The notes below the pieces were generated by a model. The model was not told the DNA's origin and searched no databases. It saw only the letters and a program-made list of their open reading frames with translations. DNA of 64,000 nucleotides from Halosolutus gelatinilyticus (GTDB lineage: Archaea > Halobacteriota > Halobacteria > Halobacteriales > Natrialbaceae), in assembly GCF_023028105.1 (NCBI RefSeq), contig NZ_CP095491.1, positions 3,162,001-3,226,000 on the forward strand. Direction: 5' to 3'. This document shows positions 13,002 through 15,505 of the stretch, in pieces (position 1 is the first letter of the stretch; the number at the start of each line of letters is the position of its first letter). The position numbers and the translations under genes were made by a program.

Positions 13002-13019
13002 GTCGCCGGTCTGTTGTGA

Positions 13020-13500
13020 GTTGCGTTCCCGCGTTCCGAACGCTGTGTCCGATCGATTTCGGGTGTGGACTGATCACTTCGGGATATCTCTGCAGGGTGG
13101 CTCCTTCGCCTTTTCAACGGAAACTACCACGACGAAAGCCCTCGGCGGGTCCGCGGTCGCTCAGACAGATATCCTCACTTCGTTCGGATAGTGCTGCCTG
13201 AGCGACTCCACTCCGACGCGACCCCGCCTCGTCCTTTCAATCCACCAGGTCTGACACTGTTCCTGCCCTCCCCCGAGTCACGCGGCACGGCTCGTAGATG
13301 TGCGGAGCCGCGTTCCTGGCCACGGCACGCTGGCGAGGGATCCGAGCGATTGCGAGGATCCCTCGCCGATTCGTGAGGGACGAGTGAGCGAGTGTGCGAG
13401 CGAACGAGTCGGCTGGGGAGGGCGAGGCTCGGGCGGGACTGAAAGGGGCCGCGTCGCCTGAGGACGGCGGGCGCAGCCCTTGCGAGTGCGACGAGCGAGG
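13020..13500. repeat. non-coding stretch rich in inverted repeats (haloarchaeal extragenic repeat type)
   Basis: About 600 bases after the phosphodiesterase gene (13002-13613) hold no credible gene. An outer imperfect dyad pairs the GCCCTCCCC/CCTTTCAATCC side (about 13230-13280) with the GGACTGAAAGG/GGGGAGGGC side (about 13415-13450). An inner perfect hairpin is at 13332-13367. The CTGCAGGGTGGCTCCTTCGCC segment (about 13092) and CGAGTGAGCGAGTG-type runs resemble sequences I have seen scattered in haloarchaeal intergenic regions; that recollection is not verified here. Confidence 0.45.
13332..13367. repeat. perfect 12-bp hairpin
   Basis: GGCGAGGGATCC (13332-13343) and its exact reverse complement GGATCCCTCGCC (13356-13367) enclose a 12-base loop. 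This is the tip of the larger dyad-rich stretch. It could form RNA or cruciform structure; no function is known. Confidence 0.6.
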
Positions 13501-13613
13501 GATCTGCAAGATGCGCAGCGTCTCGTAGAGTAAGGACCGCAGCCGACCGCCGGGAGGCGAGAACCGCAGCGAACCCTCCGACTCGAGCGTCGCGGGAGCT
13601 TTCGAGGGGATCT

Positions 13614-13621
13614 CTTAGCCT
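13614..13621. repeat. left target-site duplication, 8 bp
   Basis: CTTAGCCT directly abuts the left inverted repeat. The identical 8 bases follow the right inverted repeat at 14501-14508, which is the footprint of a transposition event. Confidence 0.8.
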
Positions 13622-14500
13622 GGCTTTGTTGAAACCCTCAAACGGTGATAGATTTTAGCAGCCGTGTTGAATACACAGCGCGAATGTCGCATGAGATATG
13701 GCTCGATTTGCGAAGGCGGTGATCGCCCAATGCAGAACAACTAATTAGCGGTCGGATGCCTCGAAATACTCCTCTCGTGAAATCGTGTATCTGTGAACGT
13801 CGGCTACGGTATCTGCCTGTGGATGCCAATTCCGCAAAAGCCCCTCGTATTGGCCGTCATACCATTCAACGTACCTTTCGATTGCTCGTCGAGACTTCTC
13901 GTTCCCGCCAACGTGGGCGGCAACAACGAGTTCGAGGTCGAGTCGGTCAAACGCGACAGAGAGGATGGCATCGGCTCGTTCACCTGAATACCCGCGCCCC
14001 CAAGATCGCTTGTCGAGGATGATACCGAGGCTGGCAGACCGTTTCTCCCAGTCGGGGTACAGGCCCGTCGTTCCAGCGATGGCACCTGCCCCGTCTTCGC
14101 CTTCCTTTGGTCGTATCACGTATTTTGCTGCCTCCCCATCGTTCCACAGTTGTTCTGCTTCGTCCACGTAGTCGTACGTCTCTTTCACCGTGTCGTGAGG
14201 GTTCGAATCCCAGTATTCGAACATTTCCGCAGTTTCGTCGCCATTGCCGTAGAACTCATGGAGAACAAATACATCGACAGTGTCGTGTGAAATTCGTTCG
14301 AGATGGAGGCGTTCCGTCTCGATGCGTTCAGGAAACATAGTGTACTATTCGTAGCCGTCAGTAATCATTGTTGAGTACGCAGATCTACTGAGCGGATAGT
14401 TCACCTGTTTCGGCGTGAAACAAACAATGCTGTCGTACTGAACCCATCCTCTGTATTCAGCAGACTGTTTGTATCAATCACGAAGGGTTTCAACAGAGCC
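13622..14500. mobile_element. 879-bp transposase-less insertion unit carrying an acetyltransferase gene
   Basis: The ends are inverted repeats: GGCTTTGTTGAAACCCT at 13622-13638 and, on the other strand, GGCTCTGTTGAAACCCT at 14484-14500 (16 of 17 identical). Both sides are flanked by the same 8-bp duplication CTTAGCCT. A subterminal TGAATACA motif occurs about 42-47 bases in from both ends. The only gene inside is the GNAT at 13745-14338; there is no transposase. Base composition inside is clearly poorer in G+C than the neighbours. Such units fit a mobile insertion cassette moved in trans by an IS with matching ends. The 8-bp duplication suits IS1595 or IS6 relatives; family assignment is inference. 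Confidence 0.85.
13745..14338 (-). CDS. GNAT family N-acetyltransferase (RimJ/RimL type), passenger of the insertion unit
   Basis: 197 aa opening MFPERIETERLHLERI, typical of the RimJ/RimL branch. The acetyl-CoA pyrophosphate loop is seen as KRSWGRGYSGERADAI (about 108-123) and the following strand/helix as LDLELVVAAHVGGNEKSRRAIE. It is complete and apparently intact. The substrate is unknown; relatives acetylate protein N-termini, amino sugars or drugs. It lies alone within the inverted-repeat unit, its codon use is less G+C-biased than its neighbours, and it was probably acquired by transfer. Confidence 0.88.
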   Translation of the reverse strand: MFPERIETERLHLERISHDTVDVFVLHEFYGNGDETAEMFEYWDSNPHDTVKETYDYVDEAEQLWNDGEAAKYVIRPKEGEDGAGAIAGTTGLYPDWEKRSASLGIILDKRSWGRGYSGERADAILSVAFDRLDLELVVAAHVGGNEKSRRAIERYVEWYDGQYEGLLRNWHPQADTVADVHRYTISREEYFEASDR

Positions 14501-14508
14501 CTTAGCCT
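14484..14508. repeat. right inverted repeat and right target-site duplication
   Basis: AGGGTTTCAACAGAGCC (14484-14500) is the reverse complement of the left end with one mismatch. It is followed immediately by CTTAGCCT (14501-14508), identical to the left copy. Confidence 0.8.
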
Positions 14509-15058: not shown

Positions 15059-15505
15059 CTACAGGGACTTTCGCATACAGGTGGCCGTCGATGGGCAGAG
15101 TTCGGCGAACTCCGTCGTCTCCCGAATCGCCTCGGGCGCGTCGTCGCGATCGATCTCCCGGTAGCTACGAGCGACGAAGAACTCCACGGCGGTCATCGTG
15201 AGCAGGTACAGCGCCTCGACCCCGTCGCCGCGAGCCTCGGCCTCCAGTGCGTCGCACAGCGCCGTCCCGTATCCGGTTCCCCGGACCGATCGCTCGACGA
15301 CGACCGATCGGAGCAGTCCGTCGCTCCCGTCGCGTTCGATCCCGCCGACACCGATCGGATCCTCGTCGGCGTACCCGACGTAGAAACACTCGGGCTTCGA
15401 TCGGACGTCCCGCGACGGGAGGTCGTTCTCCTCCAGCAGGGACTCGAGGTACGATAGCCCTCTCCCGTCGTCGGCTCGGGTCAGTGATATCGGCGCGTCG
15501 GCCAT
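15059..15505 (-). CDS. GNAT acetyltransferase, ArsN2-like
   Basis: 148 aa. The GNAT core is LRSVVVERSVRGTGYGTALCDALE (acetyl-CoA loop RGTGYG, about residues 75-80). The end, PEAIRETTEFAELCPSTATCM, is the pattern of the ArsN2/arsenic N-acetyltransferase-like branch. There are no ars genes nearby, so a role in arsenic handling is not supported by context. The start MADAPISLTRAD is well placed. Confidence 0.8.
   Translation of the reverse strand: MADAPISLTRADDGRGLSYLESLLEENDLPSRDVRSKPECFYVGYADEDPIGVGGIERDGSDGLLRSVVVERSVRGTGYGTALCDALEAEARGDGVEALYLLTMTAVEFFVARSYREIDRDDAPEAIRETTEFAELCPSTATCMRKSL

Follow-up and report, generated by a model that had tools for sequence, protein, structure and literature searches.

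A transposase-less unit carrying an acetyltransferase gene in Halosolutus gelatinilyticus belongs to a haloarchaeal family of units that seem to be moved by IS5-type transposases

The unit, its passenger gene and its surroundings

The window analyzed here, 64 kb of the Halosolutus gelatinilyticus genome, contains a transposase-less unit of 879 bp (13622-14500, no strand assigned) that is bounded by inverted ends and an exact 8-bp duplication. Its left 17-bp terminal inverted repeat, GGCTTTGTTGAAACCCT (13622-13638, plus strand), matches the right one (14484-14500, minus strand) at 16 of 17 positions; the reverse complement of the latter, GGCTCTGTTGAAACCCT, is the exact family motif. Identical copies of the target site duplication, CTTAGCCT, adjoin the unit on the left (13614-13621) and on the right (14501-14508), both given on the plus strand, and this 8-bp sequence is absent from the rest of the window (0.15 occurrences expected). 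Likewise, the end motif is found in the window at the two focal sites only, even when three mismatches are allowed. Subterminal motifs lie inside the ends, GTGTTGAATACACAGCGCGAATGT on the left (13664-13687, plus strand) and TGCTGAATACAGAGGAT on the right (14446-14462, minus strand), and they fit a consensus that is kept in the left and right ends, respectively, of 15 aligned units.

The sole substantial gene of the unit, and its sole open reading frame with a protein family match, encodes a 197-aa GNAT acetyltransferase (13745-14338, minus strand; Pfam Acetyltransf_3, E = 8.8e-16). A tblastn search of the unit with IS5 transposase returned nothing, and no transposase remnant was found inside. 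The first-pass annotation had described the unit in these terms, with near-perfect inverted ends, an exact duplication, matching subterminal motifs and an intact acetyltransferase as its only product, and each element of that description holds. The G+C content is 52% for the unit vs 65% for the window. A sigma-70 promoter scan found nothing, and such a scan is not applicable to archaea.

Elsewhere in the host genome, partial matches to the unit are limited to ends and GNAT-like genes, and no second intact 879-bp GNAT unit was found there or in 125 genomes of the same family. In many relatives the genes flanking the unit lie close together and no GNAT separates them, so the GNAT gene is a newcomer at this locus. 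No exact empty site is readable in two same-genus genomes, because different DNA fills the interval there; empty sites, which the first-pass annotation had proposed to look for, were recovered for other units of the family (see below).

Several features of the neighborhood are recorded for completeness. About 600 bp to the left of the unit (13002-13613) are missing from the two same-genus genomes, which carry another stretch between the same two flanking genes, and the interval seems to be a site of frequent local change. Just downstream lies a second, unrelated GNAT gene (Acetyltransf_1; 15059-15505), the DNA of which is syntenic in same-genus genomes and falls outside the focal unit.

Relatives of the passenger gene are present in 24 of the 125 family genomes, the host included, and in neither of the two same-genus genomes. 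Most of them are without the ends, several other copies lie near end remnants, and Natrononativus harbors a 916-bp GNAT unit with worn ends, a 7/8 duplication and an in-frame stop in the gene. The first-pass annotation had named orthologous loci with the gene but not the repeats as grounds for refutation. Taken literally, this applies, since copies without the ends do exist, one of them 97% identical, but they show only that the GNAT gene is a captured passenger, and the cassette reading is still supported. A 650-bp block comprising the gene with 45 bp of upstream and 12 bp of downstream sequence (13733-14383, minus strand, as limited by homology) is common to two other genomes at 97% and 94% identity (loci L149 and L150, about 1456-2106). 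Its limits are the same in three unrelated surroundings and both other copies are without ends, as if the gene had moved on its own as a cassette. The dN/dS of the focal gene is 0.25 and 0.23 vs these two copies and about 0.1 vs more distant ones. Judged from such sequence comparisons, GNAT is an accessory gene under purifying selection.

End modules and their IS5-family partners

The end module of the family consists of the 17-bp terminal repeat GGCYYTGTTGAAAYCCT and a subterminal GTGCTGAATACAGAG motif. Within the focal subfamily, both ends comprise the 17-bp repeat, usually a TGATA, and the GTGCTGAATACAGAG motif, the spacing of which is about 5 bp shorter in most right ends. The signature used for the species-wide scan (see below) was the 17-bp repeat plus subterminal GTGCTGAATA. 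The left subterminal motif GTGTTGAATACACAGCGCGAATGT is a probable, still putative, transposase-binding site.

A chance origin of the focal repeats is excluded. With up to three mismatches, the end motif occurs 30 times in the host genome and the reversed motif never; it was found in 49 of the 61 genomes searched, where a reversed control pattern gave 0 matches, a favorable outcome for the search of haloarchaeal genomes that the first-pass annotation had proposed. When the flanks of 54 catalogued elements, preselected for duplications with at most two mismatches, were mispaired, 0 exact 8-bp matches appeared in 2,862 combinations, compared with 41 of 54 for the true pairs. Adjacent convergent end pairs chosen on their ends alone showed an exact duplication in 37 of 62 cases and one or two mismatches in 10 more.

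Full-length elements with the same ends, which the first-pass annotation had proposed to look for, were found and encode an IS5-family transposase. In these autonomous relatives the transposase gene starts about 52-57 bp inside one end and specifies a protein of 273 to 283 aa, which exceeds the NCBIfam threshold for IS5 (NF033579) and is related to proteins named ISHla2 and ISHxa2. The closest match to the focal ends is a transposase-bearing element of 1942 bp (L141) with the exact duplication AAAATTCG, the transposase-distal end of which is 78% identical to the left 110 bp of the focal unit. The 8-bp duplication is likewise seen in the transposase-bearing relatives L080, L111, L141 and L318. 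Its length and the ends beginning GGC/GC fit the ISH1 subgroup of the IS5 family, to which the partner may belong.

Some IS5 elements carry passengers in addition to the transposase: RDD and DUF6498 proteins in L086, a PHO4-family transporter in L129, and a multicopper oxidase in L318. The last is a 3152-bp element on a Natrinema sp. DC36 plasmid (L318 3445-6596), with a full-length IS5 transposase gene and the exact duplication AATCGTTC. The elements found therefore form a continuum, which starts with autonomous ISs and passes through ISs that carry a passenger and passenger units that lack a transposase to MITEs. Each matching transposase copy that was found in the host is interrupted or fragmentary, so the focal unit may by now have no means of moving, or a helper may have been present for a time and then lost. 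The same situation was described for a Haloquadratum MITE (PMC3119063).

A family of units in the host and across haloarchaea

The host genome contains at least five further units with the same ends, found by pairing ends and then checking for 8-bp duplications, and four of them have exact ones. They comprise a 777-bp unit encoding a 149-aa unknown protein (duplication AAAAATCG), a 125-bp MITE with no gene (AAGTATTC), a 1331-bp unit with an ArsO-like flavoprotein (GCACCGAT), a 2076-bp unit with LtrA (GATCGATT), and a 3194-bp unit with an ABC transporter ATPase and a membrane protein (flanks CGTTGTCA/CGTCGTCA); none of these five encodes a transposase. The MITE splits a degenerate IS5 sequence that is present twice (L045 2542-3413 and 4747-5030; host genome C1, about 1,895,141-1,897,630), and the uninterrupted copy, with a single AAGTATTC, serves as a paralogous empty site. 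Both copies lie near genes for membrane proteins that we take to be PAP2-like.

Other units also bear marks of movement. From end to end, the copies of a 1350-bp hydrolase unit share 97.6% identity between Halorubellus salinus and Halogranum amylolyticum, which NCBI places in two different families; the flanks are unrelated between the two genomes, and both duplications are exact (AGGCATCC and ATTTATCA, respectively). Computational removal of a 605-bp unit and joining of its flanks restored a Dam-like methylase frame, and the same operation on a 341-bp unit restored an Mrr-like frame, both names being our reading of motifs.

The fetched regions yielded 54 units with a duplication at two mismatches or fewer, 41 of them exact. 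When a single genome from each of 84,980 species was scanned for the signature, 107 stretches were returned, 80 of which became loci, and these added 28 units, 0 with a transposase. After one duplicate was dropped, the catalogue held 81 units, 12 with a transposase or remnant and 69 without, under filters that favor well-preserved units. Among the transposase-less units, 44 of 69 have an open reading frame of at least 100 aa, and about 20 protein families are represented. Named passengers include GNAT, LtrA, alpha/beta hydrolase, MMPL, Bat/HTH_10 regulators, a saccharopine-dehydrogenase-like protein, Rce1, RDD, DUF2270, DUF6653, HNH, glyoxalase, Usp, cupin and BrkB, as well as a bile-acid-symporter-like protein, a formate/nitrite transporter and an ABC transporter. 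The end family is widespread in haloarchaea, around many different passengers.

All loci of the signature scan come from haloarchaeal or unnamed archaeal records except two (L228 and L255), which are short contigs of Bacteroidales and Elusimicrobia metagenome bins with the end signature. These are probably mis-binned haloarchaeal DNA; transfer is the other reading. A viral-class contig (IMG/VR 2554235474_000003) carries a 916-bp family unit with an HNH endonuclease gene and the exact duplication TGGTACTC (L206 9928-10843), and a second HNH unit is present in Natrinema ejinorense (L239 7013-7895). Finally, Halorubrum halophilum harbors nested passenger units (L256 436-1803 and 532-1190), each with its own exact 8-bp duplication.

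Interpretation and relation to known systems

We propose that the focal unit is a mobile insertion cassette, with end modules around a passenger, most likely moved in trans by an IS5-family transposase, and we put the probability of this reading at about 0.87. Weighing against it are the broken transposase copies of the host, the failure to find a second GNAT unit with intact ends or an exact empty site, and the many GNAT relatives that lack ends. More broadly, IS5-type insertion sequences, which are common, seem to supply the transposase that moves this family of gene-carrying units. The unit combines 17-bp ends that are the same as those of IS5-type elements with a transposase, no transposase inside, a passenger unrelated to transposition (GNAT, Acetyltransf_3), and an 8-bp duplication, the length made by the cognate IS. 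The first-pass annotation had offered a mobile insertion cassette as an idea, the structural side of which is upheld by the recurring ends and by the autonomous IS5 elements that carry them; it under-called the scale, because the unit is one of a large family. Mobilization in trans is what the architecture suggests. The source of the IS5-family DDE transposase (ISHla2/ISHxa2 type) would be a full-length element bounded by the same ends, and the enzyme would bind both ends of the unit, probably at the subterminal motif. It would then join the unit to target DNA at a cut staggered by 8 bp, and the 8-bp duplication would result from this, the details of strand transfer being presumed.

Other assignments were considered and rejected. 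The unit is not an autonomous IS5 element, as it has no IS5-family DDE transposase and its relatives do; it is not a MITE, at 879 bp with an intact 197-aa gene under purifying selection; it is not a transporter IS (tIS), with no transposase beside the passenger; and it is not an IS6-family derivative, since the IS6-type copies in the host genome have other ends. Terminal repeats with duplications argue for DDE transposition over an integron gene cassette.

Alternatively, the unit could be a degenerate transporter IS, that is, an IS5 element with transposase and GNAT that lost the transposase by internal deletion and is now a relic, not moved as it stands. IS5 elements with both a transposase and a passenger do exist (L086, L129, L318), and the transposases of the host are broken. 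However, exact duplications flank the transposase-less units themselves, the 1350-bp unit moved as a unit lacking a transposase gene, and no transposase remnant was found in the focal unit. In addition, both ends of focal-type units differ from the transposase-proximal end of the IS, and the right end of the focal subfamily is a separate end type common to many passenger units; the units are therefore not simple internal deletions of the IS. We consider this alternative improbable. Derivation from an IS6-family element is much less probable again. In its favor, 8-bp duplications and ends that start with GGC are also found in haloarchaeal IS6 elements, and an IS6-like transposase adjoins one end-like sequence in the host genome, but the host IS6-type ends are different (GGCACTGTCTAGA and GGTCGTGTTTAGT) and elements with focal-type ends encode an IS5 transposase; IS6 was rejected as the partner for its differing ends. 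The view that there is no mobile unit, only an ordinary gene that happens to be framed by inverted and direct repeats, can appeal to the many genomes with GNAT orthologues without ends, yet it has next to no probability in the face of the mispairing result, the flanking genes that are neighbors without GNAT in many relatives, and the same architecture with exact duplications in dozens of units.

Going beyond the mobile insertion cassette, the end pairs may constitute a general gene-capture platform in haloarchaea, in which standard modules exchange gene-sized passengers as a transposon counterpart of integron cassettes. This is hinted at because in many unit pairs both end modules are alike at 75-95% identity with nothing common in between, so that unrelated passengers sit between similar modules, and because the 650-bp GNAT block keeps its limits in three contexts. 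We regard the platform as speculative and rather unlikely.

Haloarchaea are known for heavy gene exchange, and the vehicle of single accessory genes is often unclear. That role could be filled in part by a widespread family of transposase-less units, whose cargo ranges over transporters, regulators, oxidoreductases and stress proteins and which escape annotation that searches only for transposases. With a simple end signature (17-bp repeat plus subterminal GTGCTGAATA), members can be retrieved directly, so that the question is open to testing.

In the literature, mobile insertion cassettes are known from Bacillus and MITEs from haloarchaea. Searchable sources, which cover few subscription papers, yielded no description of IS5-linked cargo units in haloarchaea and no paper naming ISHla2 or ISHxa2. 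Mobile insertion cassettes as such are already known (MIC231); an IS5-linked haloarchaeal family of such breadth is apparently undescribed.

Haloarchaeal MITEs resemble the focal unit in their common ends, non-autonomy and 8-bp duplication, and the family itself includes 125-bp MITEs, but they have no passenger gene, whereas the focal unit has an intact one. The haloarchaeal IS5-like elements ISHla2 and ISHxa2 share the terminal repeat, and their transposases are related to that of the partners; ISHxa2 is the transposase of a 2490-bp element with an exact duplication and two passengers. Unlike the focal unit, they encode a transposase. ISH2 of Halobacterium (520-531 bp), which is moved by the ISH8 transposase, is also haloarchaeal, transposase-less and carries an open reading frame (PMC3119063, PMC10264941). 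It differs in being ISH8-related, with a 10-bp duplication and one fixed open reading frame, whereas the focal family surrounds many passengers with one end family. Finally, MIC231 of Bacillus cereus (IS231, IS4 family; cited in PMC2266710 and PMC6542083) has IS ends around passenger DNA and no transposase, and is expected to move in trans, as we expect of the focal unit; IS, passenger-bearing IS and cassette are related there in the same modular way as in the focal family. As of 2008, no other IS family had been found to show this modularity (PMC2266710). MIC231 belongs to the IS4 family and to bacteria, while the focal family is IS5-linked and archaeal, with an 8-bp duplication and many more passenger types.
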